From Cochliopodium minus (lineage: Eukaryota > Discosea > Himatismenida > Cochliopodiidae): 20,264 nucleotides of DNA. The stretch covers positions 87,513 through 107,776 of the forward strand of contig JAMYWO010000086.1 in the NCBI GenBank assembly GCA_024220525.1. Reading direction: 5' to 3'. Positions 637 through 13,100 of the stretch are shown here, piece by piece (within the stretch, counting starts at the first letter, position 1; each line of letters starts with the position of its first letter). A program made the translations under genes and the position numbers. The notes beneath the pieces were generated by a model. That model did no database searches and was not told the DNA's origin. It saw only the letters and a list, made by a program, of their open reading frames with translations.

Positions 637-3600
637 ATGAATGATAAAGAACAGAATCAAAAATTCTTCAAAAAGAACGTAAATCGAAAACTTCATCAAC
701 TTATTTCATTCAAAAACTTATCCATTTTTTATTATAGATCGTATATTTCCTTTTTTATTTTTTAAATATGCTTTAAGATTATTAATTGCTCAATCAAAAA
801 TCACCTTAGAAAGTAAACCCTCTTTAAAAATTTTTATTTATTTTCCTCAAAAATCTTTCATTTCCTCATAGGGGGTAAAAAAATTCATCCACAATTCAAA
901 AAATCAAAAATATAACTAACATCAATACATGATATAGATCGTAAGAACATCCATCAATCATTATCCTTTTTTTTTTAACAATGAAATGTAACATTCCAAT
1001 CTAGTGGGTATGTTTCTTTGAATAATTTCAATAAACAAGTAATAATTCAAATTTAGGGGGTAAAATTCAAACAGATAAAAGCAAAATTTAAAAATATCAA
1101 ACTAAAATTAAAAAAAAAATAATGATTAGGATGTAAGATAATCAATTTCATATTATCAATCTAATACTAACAAAATTGATTTCAAAAATGATAGTCCGTA
1201 AGAATAATTTTTAATTAATCTCAAATTAAAAATTATTTTTCATAAAAACAAATTAATTAAAATTTAAAAAAAAAAGATTGATTTGAGCGGAAAATTGAAG
1301 GAATACAACAAAGAAACAATATTTCAAGAACTTTTCGAGTTTTTGGAAATATACAAAAAAACAACAAAGACCTCAATAAGATACCTCAACTTGAACAACA
1401 ACAACATAACATCAGAAGAGGCCATGTTGATATTAGACGTGATGAAGTACGAAAACATCTCGGTGTATCAAATAAAATTGGAGGAGGGGAATGATGTTGA
1501 GAAAGCAATCGTTCAAGAGATAGAGAAGTATGCTCAAGAAAACCATGAATCGGAGAAAAAAGCAATGGAGAGAATAGAAAAAAACGAATTGACAAGAATA
1601 GTAAAAAAAAATCTTAATTCAACAATTTTAAAAATAAATAAAAAAAAATTTAAGATTCAGAAATAAATGAAATTCTTTTAAAAAAAAATTCAAAAAAGAA
1701 CACACAATAAGAAAAAATTTTAATCCCATAATTTTTTATAATATTTTTCAATTTAGATAACGTTGAAAAATGAACTAAAAGAAAAGAAGCAAAAAATAAT
1801 AAAGTTGGAAGAGGAGAAAGAGAAGCAAACAAAAAGAGCAAACGAAATGGAAGAGGCAAGCAGCACCTACCTCAAAGATTCCAACCTCCAAAAGATCCTG
1901 AAGAAAGCGCAAGAAAATAAAATATCTATACTGGAACAAGAAATATCGGAGCTTAAAGTCAGAGTGGATTTTCTCGAAGAGGAAAAGAAAGAGGGCGAAA
2001 AAGAAAAAGAAGAGAGGATGAAGGAAATCAAAATTTTGAAAGAAGAAAAAATCAAGTTTGAAGAAGAAAAACAGGTTTTTGAAGAGGAGAAAGTGTTTTG
2101 GGGGTTGGAGAAGGAAAATTTGGAGAAGGAGGTTCTGTTTTTTAAGGGAGGGAGGAGAGTTTCTGTTGATGTCGATCCTTATAAGGAGAAAGGGGAGGGG
2201 GAGAAGGAGCTGTTTCTTTTGAGAAATGAGAAGAGGGGATTTGAAGAAGAGAGGAAGAAGTGGAGTGTCGAAAAGGAGAATATGATGAAAGAAATCAAAG
2301 AGTTGAAGGAGAAAATCAAAGTCGGGGTTGGTGGTGATAAATCAACGGAAAACACCAATTTGATCAGAAAAAGCATCAGTAATGAGGACACCAATAAACA
2401 AAACGCTCAAAAAGAAGAGTTCACAAAGCTTCAAATCAAGTACAACAATGTCTTGAAAGAGAACAACGCTCTCAAGTTGAAAGAGAAGAACTTGCTTGAA
2501 CACAAAAAGAACGAGGATCTTGAATTGGAAGAAAAAATCAAGAAGGTAGGCATTTCTATGAGGAAACTCAAAGAGGAGGTGGAATTCAAGGACAGAGAGA
2601 ACGAACAGCTTAAAAAAAACAACGATAATCTCCAAATCTTGCTAAAGAAGATCAATGAAGAAAAAATCTTGTTGCAGAAAGAGAAACACGAGTTTAATCT
2701 CCTCAAAATAAAGTTGGTTGATAGAATCAAGTTTTCTGAAGAGAAAATCGTTTCTTTGCAAAAGGGAAGGGAAATCAATACTTCGACTGGCAGCGATGAA
2801 GGTGGCTTTGAAGCGAAATATCTCTTTGTGGCGAATCAGTACAGGGAGCTTTCCGAGAAGTGCTCCATCCTCGAAAAAATCGAGGAAGAAGCTAAAAACA
2901 AGATCATCAGGATGAAAGATGAGTTAAACAAACTTCTCCTTAGAAACAATTCTTTAACGAGAGACCTCGAAGAGCTTAGAAAGAATGTTTCTTTTTGCGA
3001 ACAAGGAGGAAACTCGGAGGAGCTCCAGATTTCTCTCAGAAAATCTACCGAGGAGAACAGGCAGTTGAAGGATCGCTATGACACCTTGGAGAAGGAGAAG
3101 GCAGAGATGTTGGAGAGGTCCATAAAGTTGGAAACCGAAATGAAAGAAAATTTGAAAAAAATAAAGTCGATGCTTCATGAGAAGATGGAAGAAAATAATC
3201 AAATTAAAGTTGAAAAAGAAGATGTTTTCCTCCATAAAAACTATTTCACCCTTTCTGAAACTTTGAGGCTGGCTCACAAGTGCTCCCATTGCGAGAAAAT
3301 TTTGGAGGAACCTCAAATCTGTGCCAACAGTTGCTGCAAAAAATACTGCAAAAACTGTTCGAAAGAAAACAATACGTGTCCTAGCAACACTTGTCGTAGT
3401 GAAACTCTTTTTCCTGACGAGCTCACTAACAATCTTCTTGGCAAAATCAAAATCGTTTGTTCTTTGTGTGATGAAGAAATGGAAAGATCTCTTTTTGAAT
3501 CTCATTTCTCAGAGCACATCTTTGAATGTGATGCTTCGAATTTGGGTTGTACTTTTAAAGGTGATAAATCATCACTTTCCGAACACTTTTTTTCTTGTAC

Positions 3601-3685
3601 TTACTTGCAAAAGTCAAAGTTGGAGAAACAGAGTAAACTGATTTCTTCTCTCTTCGAAGGTTTGCAACTCTTGATTCAATTTTAA
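637..3685 (+). CDS. Coiled-coil protein with C-terminal RING and zf-TRAF domains
   Basis: The proposed exons are 637-678, eight 3-nt exons (separate entry), 1277-1600 and 1757-3685, giving 772 residues. All joins are phase 0 and every intron is GT-AG. The N-terminus is MNDKEQNQKFFKKN. One leucine-rich-repeat-like unit (YLNLNNNNITSEEA, about residues 58-71) follows. A long, Glu/Lys-rich coiled coil fills about residues 90-610. The C-terminus carries a RING-type Cys cluster from about residue 639 (CSHC, then CCKKYCKNC, then CPSNTC) and a TRAF-type zinc finger from about 698 (CSLC, H, C, C, H, C spacing). Known TRAFs have the RING at the N-terminus followed by a MATH domain; here the order is reversed and there is no MATH. 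The likely role, by family, is a ubiquitin ligase or scaffold that oligomerises through the coil. The large 3' exons are secure. The 5' exons are inferred from splice signals and phase. Confidence 0.8.
679..1276 (+). other. Run of eight candidate 3-nt microexons separated by short introns
   Basis: Eight times in this interval an acceptor (TAG) is followed by exactly three bases and then a donor (GTA). The triplets are ATC 738-740, AAA 810-812, GGG 872-874, ATC 938-940, TGG 1005-1007, GGG 1057-1059, GAT 1130-1132 and TCC 1195-1197. The intervening introns are 59, 69, 59, 63, 64, 49, 70, 62 and 79 nt, the size of the shorter introns elsewhere here. ACTAAC branch-point-like sequences precede the ATC at 938 and the TCC at 1195. 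The 14-codon exon ending at 678 and the exon starting at 1277 are both phase 0, so the triplets insert I-K-G-I-W-G-D-S without a stop. All triplets could be skipped singly or together without changing frame. Confidence 0.6.
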
Positions 3686-3756: not shown

Positions 3757-4236
3757 TTAATTCAAAAACATATTCATCTTTGTATCACAACGAATGTAAG
3801 GCGAACCAGTCAAAGGAATATGTTTAAATCCAAGTTTTTCATACAATTTTATAGCAGGAATAAGCTTTGAATTTGTTTCAAGGAAGATTTCTTTTGCTTT
3901 TTCTTTTTTTGCCACATTGATCAATTCTTGACCCATCAAAAAACCAATCTTTTTTCCTTGAGCTTTGGGAGTTACCGCCATTTTTGCTAATTCAAATATT
4001 AAAGGTTCATCGGAAGTTTTCACTAATGCACAAGTTCCTACCACTTCATTATTTAAAATTGCAAGTACAATGAAACCTCCTTTTTTGATGATATAATCTT
4101 CTGGATTATCAAGCATTTTGTAATCGCTTTCTTCCATTTTGAATAATTTACTGATCCACTCTACATTCAAATCCCTGAAATTTTGTTGATATTTTGATTC
4201 ATATTCGACAATACTAACCTCATTATTATCCATCAT
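3757..4236 (-). CDS. GNAT-family N-acetyltransferase, bacterial type
   Basis: This is an intronless 159-residue frame, a normal length for a single-domain GNAT. It would transfer an acetyl group from acetyl-CoA to an amine; the substrate cannot be read from sequence. Motif A is visible at about residues 86-104 (LAKMAVTPKAQGKKIGFLMG): a beta strand, then the QGKKIG form of the Q/R-x-x-G-x-G/A pyrophosphate loop, then the following helix. Motif B is LYEKLGFKHI near residue 131. The start has two adjacent ATG codons. The compact domain with no targeting extension and no intron resembles bacterial GNATs more than intron-rich neighbours, which suggests gain by transfer (inference). Its start lies 26 bp downstream of repeat copy A, which probably provides its promoter and a short upstream ORF. 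It is convergent with the RING gene, whose stop is about 70 bp away. Confidence 0.88.
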   Translation of the reverse strand: MMDNNEVSIVEYESKYQQNFRDLNVEWISKLFKMEESDYKMLDNPEDYIIKKGGFIVLAILNNEVVGTCALVKTSDEPLIFELAKMAVTPKAQGKKIGFLMGQELINVAKKEKAKEIFLETNSKLIPAIKLYEKLGFKHIPLTGSPYIRCDTKMNMFLN

Positions 4237-4261
4237 TTGATCTTTTTTTAATTTTCTAAAA

Positions 4262-4463
4262 CACTCATATAATCATCCCTCCTTCATATGATTTTATTTT
4301 TTTGAAAAGTAAAAAGAAAATTCTATTTTGTAAAATCAACGATGAATATATTGTGAACGTGATTAAAATAAAAAAATCTAATGTTTGTATATAAAATAAC
4401 ACTTTTTGTTGGATTGAAATAATGAACAAAATTGATTGATAATTAATTGAAGGAATCAATTGA
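4262..4463 (-). repeat. Dispersed promoter-like repeat, copy A (upstream of GNAT)
   Basis: This 202-bp block aligns without gaps to copy C (20063-20264), with four mismatches (about 98% identity). Its proximal 110-140 bp also matches copy B in inverted orientation. The gene-proximal edge is sharp: CACTCATATAATCATCCCTC on the plus strand, read as ..GAGGGATGATTATATGAGTG towards the GNAT gene. An ATG at this edge opens a six-codon upstream ORF that stops before the GNAT start. The distal end stops 18 bp short of the Ubl/zinc-finger gene's stop codon. Frames translated through the block look non-coding. Confidence 0.85.
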
Positions 4464-6459: not shown

Positions 6460-9400
6460 ATGGAAGAGAATAATGATAAAAACAGAAATAATGTTATATT
6501 AGAATTATATCAAACAGAATTAAGTTATGTGGAAGATTTACAATTGTTATTGGAGGTAAATAAAGGAAAATTGAAATTAAAATTATCAATAATGTAAATA
6601 TTATAAATTTTTTTGGTAGTTATACGTTCAACCAATAAGATCTAATACTAAAGGATGGATTAAAAACGATATAAATCAATTATTTTCAAATCTTACTGTT
6701 ATAGCAGGTGTGAATAAAGTTTTAAAGGAAGATTTGAAGAAGGAGAATCTGTTGCCACCAGAGAAACAGAATATAGGAGCGATATTTTTGAAATTGGCAG
6801 ATTATCTCAAAATGTATACCCAATATTGTGGTGAACAAACAGTGGTAGTAAAATCAATCACAGATCAAAGAAGAGATAAATCTTTCAATGAATTTCTAGA
6901 AGTAAATATTTTTCAACATAAACCTCAAAATATTAATTTTATAAAAGAGATATAACGATTAAATATATTTAAACATAAAATTTTTGATAGGATGTAAAAT
7001 TCAACAATCCCAAATCAAAAGGATTGGATATAAATCAATTTCTCATAAAACCAGTACAAAGAATATGCAAATATCCATTGCTATTGGAACAATTATTGAA
7101 ATACACATCAAAATCACATCCAGATTACGATAATCTCCATCAAGCAATACAAAAAATGGGGACAGTGGTTAATGATATAAACAAAGGAAGAAGGCAATTA
7201 GAAACATATCACAAAGCATCCTTCTTGCAAGTGGAGATAGAAAGAGTGATCAATGCGAAATTTCAATTGATGAAGATAGGGAGATTTTACATCCGAGAAG
7301 GTGATTTCCAAAAGATATCTGGACCCAAACTTCTACAACAAAGATTGTATCTCTTCAACGATCTCTTGATCTACGGAAAGATCCTCAATCCAAACAAGAA
7401 GAATGAAAGATTCAAGTACAAAGGACATGTATATCTCTCGAGGATGGTCATAGAAAATCTGGCAGAAAATGAAGTTACTCCCAAATATAATAACGAAAAT
7501 GCTTTCAAGTTTGCGAGGTTGGATGGGAAGGAAATGAAAAAATACATCTTGGTAGCAAAGAGCAAAGAAGAGAAATATCTATGGAAGAATGAATTTGAAG
7601 AACTCATCGAAGAGTCAAAGAAAAGGACAGATCAGAGAATGTCTTTGGTAATTAGCATGTACACTGAATCTTCTGACACTTCTATCAAAGAATCTACCGA
7701 GGATTATGTTGAGAAGTTGACATCCAAAGAGGACAAGTTGATTCACTACGAAAAAAACTCGAAGAAAGAAGAAAGAAAGGAAAGAAAAGCTGCCTTGAAA
7801 GAACTTGATCTTCTTTCTTTTTACGAGTCAGAAGACGACAGCTCTGTCATTTCATCTGTTAAGATTGAAGAAAAAATCAAAAACGATTTTGAGACTTACC
7901 CTTCTCTATCCAAAGTACCAACTAAATACTCCTCTTTCTATTCTACTCTCATAAGTTCTGCAAGAAAATTCGAAAAGAACGAGACTGTGGAGCTTCTCCT
8001 TCTCGGAGAAAAATCTAGTGGGAAATCTTCTCTCTTTGAAGCAATTACAGGTGTACCTCTTTTGCCTAACGAAGAAACAAAAGCAGTCATTTATTTCAAG
8101 ATGTTGAATAATCCCGAGCAAGAAAAGCCAAGGATAGTCATCAAATCTAAGATTGGAAATTTCGTTTTCCGTTCCTTGGATGAGTTCAAAAACAGAATCA
8201 GAGAGAAAATGTTGAAGCCCAAAAAAAATCCCATTTACATCACTTACGAGTCCAAAGAGTGCTGGAATGTTACTGTCATAGACACTCCTGCTTTTGATAT
8301 CAACAAAGAAGAATCTGTTTCTCAGATCCTAAAACTCACAAGACATCCACACAGAAAGATCCTTTGTGTCATTCCTACAAAACCTCCAAGTTGCGAATTG
8401 ACTTTGTTCGATTTCATCAAGCAAAACTTGGATCCTAATTTGAGCAGAACCATTTTCTTGAGAACTAAATTCCAACTTTATGTCCACTTCCTTTCAGAGC
8501 AACACAAGTTGGACACTTTCTACAAACAAACTGTCGGAATTTCAAATTCTTTTTTCCTTTCTTGTTTTTCCAAGTTTACAAGGGAAGATGTAAAGGATCA
8601 ATCACAACTGGATCAACTTTTGTTGAAGAACGACAGTCTTCTGTATTCTACTGTCAACAAATTGGGATTCGATCATTCTTCAATGAACCGCATCGGTGTC
8701 TCAAAGTTTAGAAAGTATCTCGTTGGGCTTTTGTTCGATCACGAAATGGGGAAGATCATATCTAATGTACCTTCTTTGATCTCCAAGAAGATAACCTTCA
8801 TTAACAACGAAATCGATAGTTTATCCAACATGGAAAAAGTCGATCTCAAAACACAACACTTCAAACACTCTTTGTCCAATTACTCTTCGAGATTCTACAA
8901 AGCTATCGATGTTCTGTTGAACGGAAACATTTCTTATTCCTCCCCAAAGACAGGATACACTTTGGAAGAAGAAAAGTCGCACAGTCCTCTCGGCCATTGG
9001 TTGCCACCTTTCATCATCGAAACAGGCGAAGAAGATGTCTTGTTTGAGAAATGCAGAATGGGTCCTGGTGGAGCTCACTTGCAAAGAGTGATCTCGGAGT
9101 TCAAATCAGTTTCCAATTCTATTAAGCTTGAATTCAGTGAGGAATCTTTGATCCCTCACGTGGATAAATTCCGCCAATCTGAAATTTCGCATCAAATCGC
9201 CCAAAATTCAATCAGATCCCAATTTGAATCCATCATCTGCAATTTCCTCCAAAGATTGAATCTTTCTTGCTCTCAAATTTCCGACACCGCTTTTTCTATT
9301 GCGGAGAGTGAGGTGGAAAGCTCCAAGTATCAATCTTTTGGTTCCTATTACTCGCTGGAGAGGTACTCTCACACGAGCCTCTTCTTGAAGCAACAGTTTA

Positions 9401-9951
9401 CTGATTTTATCCAAAAGAGATTGGATATTTGGAGGGATCGTTCTTTAGAGTTTCTTCATCTGGATAGGTAATAAAAAAACAAACTTTGAAAAAATAAAAT
9501 TTAAAATAACTTTAAATTAAAAACTTTATTTTTTCAAAATAGATTTCCTTGTTGGAAGATCAACAACTTTATCAATCTCGATTTTGTACCTAAATATCCT
9601 TTGTTGGGTAAACTAAACGATGATGAAATCAAAAATTCGATTCATCTCCTTGCAACTGAGCTTTTCAACGAATTAAAACAAGAGATTATCCAAAAGTGCC
9701 TCACTGATCTCTACGAAATCTTTCTTTCTCCTCTTTTGACTTCCAATCAACTGATTTACTCCATCCATTCCTCGATCTCTTCTTTAAATGAAAAGGATAT
9801 CTTGGAGCTTTTTCATTTAGATTCTTTGAAGAAAGAGATCAGATCTTCTGTCCTCGAGAAGGAGAAAGAAAAGAATTTGTATGCGGAAATGAAGAAAGAG
9901 TTTTCCTCTTGTTTGGAGAACTTTTATCAATTGAGAGAAATTTTGATTTAA
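6460..9951 (+). CDS. RhoGEF (DH-PH) fused to a dynamin-like GTPase
   Basis: Exons 6460-6555, 6620-6901, 6991-9467 and 9543-9951 give 1087 residues. The DH domain is at about residues 8-195. CR1 reads LYQTELSYVEDLQLLLELYVQPI split over the first intron, and CR3 is FLIKPVQRICKYPLLLEQLL. A PH domain follows at about 218-335 and ends in the usual W-containing C-terminal helix (YLWKNEFEEL). A charged linker leads to a dynamin-type G domain. G1 is GEKSSGKSS (about 465-473), a G2 region lies around LPNEET, G3 is DTPAF (about 557-561), and a G4-like site is RTKFQ (about 617), where dynamin has TKLD. The remaining 450 residues look helical, as in a dynamin stalk. By family, DH-PH exchanges GDP for GTP on Rho/Rac/Cdc42 and dynamins remodel membranes, so one chain may couple actin and membrane fission. 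The start is the first in-frame ATG and follows repeat copy B. Confidence 0.92.
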
Positions 9952-10147: not shown

Positions 10148-13100
10148 ATGAGTGGTTCAGATAATCATACAAAGTATACACCCAAAATATCAAATTTGAA
10201 GATTTCATTCTTTATCATATATATATATTAAATCCTTTTATTAGGGTTGTTTCTACCTGGATTAAAAGATGTGTATCTGAAAATATCAATACAGATGGAA
10301 ATGTACCCTACTCATCTGGGATGAAAATACAAAAATATCTTCAAAATCAATTGACCAGAAAGATTGGTAAAATATAATGATTAAAAATTAATCTTTAGCC
10401 GATATTAAAAAGATAAATTGATATTTAAAAATGATGAAATAACAACATATGGACATCATTCAATCAAAGAATAGAAATATATAAAGATCCATAAAAAAAA
10501 TAGGGAATTTTAATCTTCTCAATTAAATGAAATTAACAAAATATTGAAGAGGATATAAATTTTGATCTTAAATCAATATTAATTTTCAAAATTTCAATCT
10601 TCACTTTAACATTCAAACATTTATATTTCCTAAAAATAAATTTATAATTAAAAAATTATCAGTATATCTATCTGTGATGGAATTGATGAAGGAAGAGATT
10701 GAAAATGAAAATATAATAAAACAGGGATTAAATTTCCTGAAGAAAAACATCCCAATCTACATCCCAGAGCCCAAGATCCTCAACAGGATAGATCAATTCC
10801 TCCAGAAATCGCTCTCGAGCAAACAAGAGAAGGATAATTTCAGCCAATCATCGTATTTCATCAGATGTCTCATCAAAAACAATCTATCCAACGTATCGAT
10901 CATCACATCAAGGAAAAAAGAAACAAAGATAGACAATTCAATCAACAATGAAAAGCAAAAAATAATGATCCATGATTTTGTTGAGTATTTCATTGAAAAG
11001 GTGACTGCTCCTTGCATGTGGATCCAATCTTACATGGAATTCGGGTTCGTTTCTCGTTTGGGACAGCTCCACATGTTCAAGGATATCAAAATTTCTTTCA
11101 GTGAGTTTAATGATTTGTCCAGCTTGACTTACAACATTTATGTTCCTCCTCTTTCTGACAGAATACATGCAGTTAAAGAATACAAAAAACAGTAAGAAAT
11201 GAAAATATTTTAAAAAATAAATTAAGATTTAATAAAATAAATAATAAAAAAAAAAAGTTAAAGGAATAATTATAAAAAAAAATAATCAATAAAAAATCAA
11301 TAAAATAAAAAAAATCAAATTTTAAAATTTTAATTTGACAGAAAAATAAAAATTTTGTTATATTTTTATTAAGAACGAAATTAAATAATTATAAAAAATA
11401 AAATACAAGAATTTATTCTAAATCACTAAACAATAAAAATATTATTTTAAATTTCAAAAAGAATCTCAAAAAGAGCAGAAGTGAAAGAAAAGTCCGTGGC
11501 TCTGTTTCAATACAAATACTACAAGGAACAAGAGCCAATCCAACTCTCAGAAAGCGACCAAGTAAGACTATTCAAAATGACCCTCAAAGAAAAACCAGAC
11601 AGAAACTTTGCCGCCAAAATTCTCATTAAACTCTTCATGGACTTTTTCTCTTCTTTGCCTCCCGAGAAAGCCAAAGAAAAAATTTTGAAGTTTTTTGTCG
11701 ACAGTTTGTCTAAGGACAAGAAGTCTGAGTATGTCAACAAAATGTTTTCTGTTCTCTTTAATTTGAGCATTCATGCTAATATGTTGGATGAAGTTTATTT
11801 CTTGGGTGAAGGTAAAACAAAAAAAAATTTTATTATTTTAATTTTTTTTATTTTTTTTAATTTTTAATTTTATTTTTATTGAAAATTTTGTTTAATTTTA
11901 ATAACGTAACCATTTTTTTTTTGGTTATGATTTATTTGGTTTTATTTTAGTTTTAGTTATAATTTTATTTTTTATTTTTAATTATTTTTATTTAAACTGA
12001 TTTAATTTTAATATTTTTATTTATTAAATTTAATTTTTATTATTTTATTTCTTTAAAAAAAATTTTCTTTTCAGAAAAGGTATCGTATGAAACTCTTTCT
12101 AAAGTGAAAGCCATCCAAGACCAGATTTTTTTGATACTTACTGAAATTTTGCTAACTCTCACGAGCAGAAATGAAGAAGATGGAGATATTTGGTGAAAAA
12201 ATTTTTATTTATTTTTTTTATGTAAAATTTTATTTTTTTTATTTTATTTTTATTTTTATTTTTATTTTATTTTTATTTTTATTTTTATTTTTATCTTTAT
12301 TTTTATTTTTATTTTTATTTATATTTTTATTTTTATTTTTATTTATATTTATATTTTTATTTTTTTGTTTTTAAAGGAATTCAGGATTTAAAGTGTTTTT
12401 GTATTTTGTTTCGGCAGATGATGGACTGGATTTCAAGAAATTGGGAATGGTCAATGGTAAAGTGATTGTTTCCTTTCTCAAGTACGTTAACCTTACAGAT
12501 AACATACACAAAACTTTAATTGAGATTCTATCAAACAAACTTTATAAAATTGGTAACAAAAAAAAATTATTTTATTTTCTAATTATAATTTCAATTTTTT
12601 ATTTTATTTTATTGATTTATTTTTTTATTTATATTTATTTTTTCATTTTCATTTTTATTTTTTATTTTATTTTATTGATTTATTTTTTTATTTATATTTA
12701 TTTTTTCATTTTCATTTTATTTTTTATTTTTTATTTTTTATTTTATTTTATTGATTTATTGATTTATTTTTATTTATTTTTTCATTTTCATTTTTATTTT
12801 TTATTTTTTATTTTTTATTTTTTATTTTTTATTTTTTATTTTTTATTTTTTATTTTTTATTTTTTATTTTTATTTTTAAATCAATTTTTAAATTTTTTTA
12901 TTTTAATTTTTTGATTTTTTTTGATTTATTTTTCATTTTTTAATTTTTAATTTTTTAAATTTTAATTATTTCCTAAAAGAAAATACAATCCCCTCACTTG
13001 ACGCAAACTTACTTTTGGAATGGTGTGGCACAATCAACTTTGTGATAGACCAATACATCCAAGCAAGATCAATAGAAGCACAAAACAACATTTTCTTCAT

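Follow-up and report, generated by a model that had tools for sequence, protein, structure and literature searches.

Arrays of predicted single-codon exons near the 5' ends of genes in Cochliopodium minus

Can an exon consist of a single codon, and can many such exons follow one another in one gene? The question is raised by a gene of Cochliopodium minus in a stretch of 20,264 nucleotides (nt), referred to here as the window (assembly GCA_024220525.1, contig JAMYWO010000086.1, positions 87,513 to 107,776 of the forward strand; the contig is called C86 below). In this gene an array of eight predicted 3-nt exons was placed within positions 679-1276, all in phase 0 and without a stop triplet, between a short first exon and an exon encoding a leucine-rich repeat (LRR) (Table 1). 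A string of phase-0 3-nt exons had been proposed at this place in an earlier sequence-only reading, and the proposal is now backed by ten further arrays in the same genome, by a splice model with free exon length and by the absence of stops; the LRR module, the longer arrays and a second array type lay beyond the view of that reading. From these lines of sequence evidence, we consider that the triplets are probably real coding exons of one codon each, which would form a tolerant, fast-changing linker between exon 1 and the LRR exon (probability about 0.85).

The motif TAG-NNN-GTA was located eight times on the forward strand at 735-1200, as previously noted, and exact placement reproduced the other particulars of that reading, namely an intron spacing of 49-79 nt, flanking exons in phase 0, the lack of stop triplets and a completed gene of 772 residues (14 + 8 + 108 + 642, from exon 1, the triplets, 1277-1600 and 1757-3682, respectively). 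The nine introns of the array measure, in order, 59, 69, 59, 63, 64, 49, 70, 62 and 79 nt, and an in-frame TAA at 634-636 directly abuts the ATG of exon 1. The donors of exon 1 and of the triplets account for nine of the 14 GT dinucleotides in 637-1276, in agreement with the remark that most GTs in this region are donors. In 20,000 dinucleotide shuffles of 637-1276 the motif occurred 0.026 times on average and twice at most, so that the earlier estimate of 0.1-0.2 chance matches was too high. Spacers of 0-2 and 4-9 nt between TAG and GTA gave no match in 637-1276. Across the whole window and both strands, 15 matches were found against 2.3 expected (maximum of 6 in 100 shuffles). A chance origin of the pattern was thus ruled out by shuffles of the window and of the local region, and likewise by the splice-model paths described below.

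The genome (44.65 Mb, 598 contigs) was then searched for two neighbouring TAG-NNN-GTA motifs, and the 15 regions inspected, including the window's own place, yielded ten further arrays: two on C24 (C24a and C24b), one each on C92, C119, C134, C193, C322, C532 and C589, and a short one on C186. The arrays fall into two types. Type 1 comprises C86 (8 curated exons), C92 (15), C134 (35), C193 (14), C322 (12), C589 (11) and C186 (5), whose introns are unlike one another by eye, and type 2 comprises the related loci C24a (11), C24b (6, interrupted by a run of N), C119 (5) and C532 (11), in which near-identical introns surround strongly differing triplets. Altogether, 133 exons were curated in the eleven arrays; 125 of them are 3 nt long and the other eight are 6, 9 or 24 nt. 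The longest array, C134, has 35 exons, 33 of 3 nt, with 24 of these in uninterrupted succession. The array introns are mostly 50-70 nt long, with a median of 57 nt (range 47-124 nt, C322 left out) in type 1 and of 66 nt in type 2.

The genome holds at least eleven arrays, because additional rows of three AG-NNN-GTAA motifs were observed at C40:18146-18272 and on C238, C310, C435 and C526; the visible letters of C40 look intron-like. Four regions of the first search (L018, L019, L020 and L021, on C45, C261, C293 and C107) were rejected as arrays after reading. Eighteen RING-family loci on other contigs (L028, L034, L036, L037 and L039-L052), drawn from 30 that were cut out and of which the remainder overlap them or known arrays, contained no chain of at least four motifs with a 3-nt spacer, although with 1.5 kb per side their 5' ends may fall outside. 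One of these loci without a chain, L043 on C514, holds a paralogue of LRR-coiled coil-RING build; at L043:127-1236 it has a long uninterrupted LRR frame of several repeats (Pfam LRR_6, E 1.5e-29) before a coiled coil and a RING.

Is the exon length truly held at three? Exon lengths of 1-60 nt were allowed in a model whose splice-site matrices were trained on the other arrays of the same type (leave-one-out). Over the eleven arrays, 124 of the 138 exons called by this free-length model measured 3 nt, and the lengths of 133 were divisible by three. In the seven type 1 arrays, 91 of 104 called exons were 3 nt long, compared with 23 of 1078 on dinucleotide shuffles, and each real path scored above the best of its 20 shuffles. 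The lengths of the introns, when sorted into remainders 0, 1 and 2 on division by three, showed no bias (31/26/25 in type 1 and 12/8/9 in type 2; C322 was left out for its mismatched cutting pattern). The three-base constraint therefore acts on the exons alone and not on the introns, and because the intron lengths are unbiased, coding or codon-periodic repeats are disfavoured as the source of the spacing.

Rows of three motifs were also counted genome-wide for different spacer lengths (k). With the donor GTAA, there were 73 rows for k=3, compared with 22 for k=2 and 19 for k=5, and ten of the arrays account for 60 of the 73; with the looser donor GTA, there were 137 for k=3 and 37 for k=4. Those rows for k=4 that could be read are mostly repeats; for k=2 and k=5 the rows are known by place only, and several are regularly spaced. 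A reversed-pattern control fell below the forward count only for k=3 with GTAA (34 versus 73), and many of the genome-wide matches are simple or coding repeats. Among the fetched loci, long intron-like chains appear for k=3 only. The first chain finder had also returned TAA triplets in C134, C193, C589 and type 2 and, in type 2, what seemed to be k=7 chains; both were rejected as 4-base overlaps with the AG-NNN-GTAAG reading; such overlapping readings were settled for the donor GTAAG, and the model driven by splice scores likewise picked no stop triplet among its 3-nt exons.

The triplets are exon-like in composition. None of the 125 curated triplets is a stop, where their composition predicts 6.7 if taken position by position (P 0.001) and 11.2 if pooled (P 8e-6); 3-mers of the introns are stops in 6.3% of cases (P 3e-4 for none in the triplets). 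When the joined exons were read in the other two phases, 9 and 18 stops appeared. The G + C content is 0.39 in the triplets versus 0.16 in the introns, and a phase-0 in-frame stop is present in 68 of the 82 introns examined in type 1 and in 24 of the 29 in type 2. The curated 6-, 9- and 24-nt members are all stop-free multiples of three as well, and every curated exon is symmetric and frame-neutral.

All seven type 1 arrays are directly followed by a homologous LRR exon of the ribonuclease-inhibitor-like kind. When a profile was built from any six of these exons, it recovered the seventh at E 4.4e-6 to 1.4e-19 in 10,000 sequences; the leave-one-out scores were 26-69 bits, and 200 shuffles per exon never exceeded 12 bits. 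The seven-exon profile matched an NLRP chain (E 1.2e-8) and ribonuclease inhibitor (E 1.4e-6) in the PDB; the LRR exon of the window alone stayed below the Pfam cut-off. Three single-sequence translated searches gave uneven links: C186 reached the window at E 1.8e-9 and C92 at 2.3e-4, C322 reached C92 at 8.1e-6 and C134 at 0.109, and the joined C92 peptide found the window at E 2e-10, whereas C193 and C589 stayed unmatched. Six of the seven LRR exons open in phase 0 at or near IDL, INL, VDL or INM, with C589 deviating. Exon 1 was placed in six type 1 genes and ends in Asn in five, and the opening triplets of C134, C193 and C322 encode Thr followed by Glu or Asp. In addition, Trp-Gly precedes the LRR as two 3-nt exons in the window (1005-1007 and 1057-1059), within a 9-nt exon (DWG) in C322 and at the start of the LRR exon (EWG) in C92, a placement that possibly reflects the same residues cut differently.

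The regions further downstream are RING/TRAF-like or Roc/COR-like in four of the seven type 1 genes. The genes of the window and C92 carry RING/TRAF-like cysteine patterns; cysteines are common to five sequences, whose profile weakly matched a TRAF6 chain (E 4e-4), and nothing in this region rose above the Pfam cut-off, so that the description of the window gene as a RING/TRAF gene in the sequence-only reading draws weak support from the profile and none from Pfam. The genes of C589 and C134 are candidates for ROCO (Roc-COR) proteins: in C589 a Roc domain rose above the Pfam cut-off (E 4.3e-8), and in C134 the matches to COR-A (E 1e-6) and to Roc (0.0022) fell short of it; no downstream domain was recognised in C193, C322 and C186.

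The type 2 arrays precede a coiled-coil-like region and a RING/TRAF-like region related to its counterpart in the window (E 4e-7), and their triplets differ far more than their introns. In a multiple alignment of 29 units, the per-site difference was 0.585 in triplets versus 0.133 in introns for C24a, 0.674 versus 0.140 for C532, 0.267 versus 0.057 for C24b and 0.778 versus 0.139 for C119; the pairwise intron difference, with gapped bases, was 0.177, 0.132, 0.063 and 0.145, respectively. Even the most variable three-column stretch of the introns had 0.43 non-consensus bases, compared with 0.60 in the triplet. Intron likeness hardly followed neighbourhood (correlations -0.07 in C24a and -0.05 in C532) or triplet likeness (0.02 and 0.27), and adjacent exons were identical in 6 of 122 pairs over all arrays against 7.7 expected, hence without excess likeness. 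A 26-nt intron core (up to 3 mismatches) had 12 matches in the genome, all inside the four type 2 arrays. Either the introns were copied within an array without regard to the codons, or duplication involved entire units, followed by fast change of the codon. Two side observations concern these loci: apparent 4-nt and 1-nt exons, with AG before and GTA after, occur upstream of three type 2 arrays (reverse strand of L009, L012 and L016, just past 5355, 5051 and 5480, respectively), and at C220:45532-46316 (L028/L031) a type 2 relative has its RING and TRAF-like pieces on opposite strands, as though an inversion had split it.

How could such exons be spliced? We propose that, in a family of sensor-like genes containing LRRs, the stretch from the short exon 1 to the LRR exon would be encoded by mostly 3-nt phase-0 exons (5-35 per array) and that the unit of recognition would be the short intron (intron definition), not the exon; from established knowledge of splicing, an exon of 3 nt offers too little sequence to be recognised itself, so that the introns must be the units. 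The introns would be excised one by one, each removal appending one codon to the growing first exon, and after each excision the next donor would gain a normal upstream exon. A missed step would then cost a single codon and never the frame. Because every exon consists of whole sense codons, the frame survives if one is gained, lost or skipped, so that an array may serve as a linker editable residue by residue in evolution and perhaps among transcripts. That the mRNA includes the exons, that the introns leave in this order and that diversity is selected for are the parts of this model that we infer.

Several observations weigh against reading the triplets as single-codon exons. Dropping a whole array preserves the frame equally well, and inclusion of the triplets in mRNA is a prediction. 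The free-length model departed from three not only with lengths of 6, 9 and 24 nt but also with 14 and 30 in C322, 17 and 25 in C589, 5 in C186 and 1 in C532; C322 and C589 were curated by hand with the frame in mind, and two of the 124 triplets of the model were excluded from the curated list (AAC, which closes exon 1 in C86, and one AAA of C24b). In the pattern counts, the reversed control exceeded the forward one for k=3 with GTA (195 versus 137), k=4 (162 versus 37), k=2 (72 versus 22), k=5 (39 versus 19) and in the first search (358 versus 87); thus, the raw totals are no argument alone, and the weight rests on the chains, with the length-blind splice model as the stronger test. The fetched loci had been picked for k=3, so that per-locus comparisons of spacers are selected. 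At individual loci, the donor of exon 1 in C92 would be GTT rather than GTA or GTG, and C186 is the weakest array, with an ambiguous start, five exons and a longest 3-nt run of only two. The 3-nt runs of C24a, C119 and C532 are preceded by those apparent exons of 4 nt and 1 nt, and their last acceptor must be AAAG or TAAG, skipping a nearer CGAG. Finally, the resemblances of the first exons and of Trp-Gly are short and were judged by eye.

Could the triplets instead be landing marks in one long intron, removed in recursive-like steps and finally skipped or irrelevant to the protein? Recursive splice sites consist of AG directly abutting GT, and a long intervening region is removed through them in short steps. 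The arrays share the prospect of removal by short steps; bypassing an array whole would need an intron of 598 nt in the window or 2230 nt in C134, and stepwise removal may suit a spliceosome adapted to the short introns seen here; the frame stays intact either way. However, the spacer in the arrays is exactly three bases and reads as sense codons, and no k=0 chain with GTAA was present in 37 sources scanned, the single k=0 chain with GTA or GTG lying in a repeat (L005, C12). Mere marks, moreover, would need neither freedom from stops nor an exon-like composition nor stop-free members of 6, 9 and 24 nt, and we regard this explanation as very unlikely. Introner-type insertions, which would have cut one ordinary exon into codons, were among the alternatives named in the sequence-only reading. 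The near-identity of the type 2 introns is introner-like, and as introner target duplications are reported to measure 3-9 bp (PMC9860276), a 3-bp duplication could leave triplets between adjacent insertions. Introners are inserted in many genes according to the same paper, whereas the type 2 intron core, the one searched for, was found only inside the arrays, and the likeness of adjacent exons is at chance level. A genome-wide introner is thus unsupported for type 2, local copying of introns may apply there, and introner insertion appears unlikely. That the arrays are repeat DNA, decayed or non-coding, whose splice-like motif has some other use would fit the tandem-repeat-like aspect of type 2, but the type 1 introns, though unrelated by eye, retain the geometry, the downstream frames are open, and the triplets are free of stops and lead in phase 0 into the conserved LRR exon, which makes this highly improbable.

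A further explanation agrees that the triplets are real exons and differs in their use: included alternatively, they would act as combinatorial cassettes and give many N-terminal linker variants per gene. The curated exons, symmetric, stop-free and frame-neutral throughout, would suit this; in addition, the type 2 triplets diverge far beyond their introns, and host genes bear LRR modules of the NLRP/ribonuclease-inhibitor kind. Constitutive inclusion, however, predicts an identical genome pattern, and in C134 all 36 placed introns measure 47-79 nt, without a double-length gap that would hint at dispensable exons, although longer introns do occur in C193 (102 and 168 nt), C322 (136 nt) and C589 (124 nt). 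We regard the cassettes as possible, with the odds somewhat against them. More tentative still is the suggestion that this presumably single-celled eukaryote may make hypervariable linkers of LRR sensors by codon-by-codon combinatorial splicing, the type 2 introns staying constant while the codons diversify; were it true, the 33 single-codon cassettes of C134 could in principle yield billions of in-frame variants.

Among known systems, single-codon coding exons would be closest to the micro-exon genes of Schistosoma. According to reports on them (PMC10526429, PMC4350168), these have arrays of symmetric exons that are very short and mostly divisible by three in length, with frame-neutral alternative splicing and fast change; their exons are mostly 15 nt (6-81 nt), their introns 0.1-5 kb, and microexons encode most of a secreted protein. 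The exon lengths in the C. minus arrays are likewise multiples of three (in 133 of 133 curated exons, with the frame as an aid in C322 and C589), but 125 of the 133 are 3 nt instead of about 15 nt, the introns are far shorter, and the array supplies 8 of the 772 codons of the window gene rather than most of the coding region. Furthermore, the arrays keep to the 5' part of genes that carry LRR and RING/TRAF-like or Roc/COR-like regions, and the domains look intracellular. Exons this tiny can evidently be spliced in animals and plants: a single 3-bp microexon is reported in Drosophila homothorax (PMC7392893), and 1-nt exons in plant APC11 and VPS55 as well as a rice gene with two adjacent microexons of 5 nt and 12 nt are described in PMC8831610, where the introns flanking plant microexons are said to be likely removed consecutively, the downstream one often first. 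In the reports compared, microexons are isolated or two adjacent, unlike the up to 24 consecutive ones predicted here. The sequence-only reading had held that single 3-nt exons are known and a string undescribed, and both statements stood in the open-access literature as judged by titles and abstract starts. The cutting predicted for these genes is finer than any that we found described.

If the triplets are indeed exons, the arrays would set a new lower limit for gene fragmentation, with runs of up to 24 single-codon exons, 5-35 exons per array and at least 11 arrays. They would also make testable how the spliceosome handles exons below exon recognition, in which order neighbouring introns are removed and whether sensors diversify through codon cassettes. 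Ordinary gene finders and read aligners likely miss such exons, and similar arrays may sit unannotated elsewhere, in line with the misannotation of plant microexons described in PMC8831610.

Table 1. Predicted exons of the array gene in the window (positions are those of the window).
Feature	Position	Strand	Remarks
Exon 1	637..678	+	MNDKEQNQKFFKKN; ATG start, phase-0 end, then GTAAAT
3-nt exon ATC (Ile)	738..740	+	pattern match, free-length model, exact placement
3-nt exon AAA (Lys)	810..812	+	pattern match, free-length model, exact placement
3-nt exon GGG (Gly)	872..874	+	pattern match, free-length model, exact placement
3-nt exon ATC (Ile)	938..940	+	pattern match, free-length model, exact placement
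3-nt exon TGG (Trp)	1005..1007	+	pattern match, free-length model, exact placement
3-nt exon GGG (Gly)	1057..1059	+	pattern match, free-length model, exact placement
3-nt exon GAT (Asp)	1130..1132	+	pattern match, free-length model, exact placement
3-nt exon TCC (Ser)	1195..1197	+	pattern match, free-length model, exact placement
LRR exon, ribonuclease-inhibitor-like leucine-rich repeat	1277..1600	+	opens IDLSGKL, phase 0; end at donor GTAAAA read from sequence
Last exon: coiled-coil-like (by eye), then RING-like and TRAF-type zinc-finger-like	1757..3685	+	stop 3683-3685; acceptor before 1757 read from sequence

The remainder of the window contains other features. Downstream of the array gene and convergent with it, a GNAT acetyltransferase open reading frame lies on the reverse strand (3757-4272). 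On the forward strand, at 6991-9471, the end of a RhoGEF and a PH domain share a frame with the N-terminal GTPase domain of the dynamin family, a pairing that looked unusual. Long T-rich tandem repeats with periods of 6, 7 and 139 are located at 12201-12971, between open frames.
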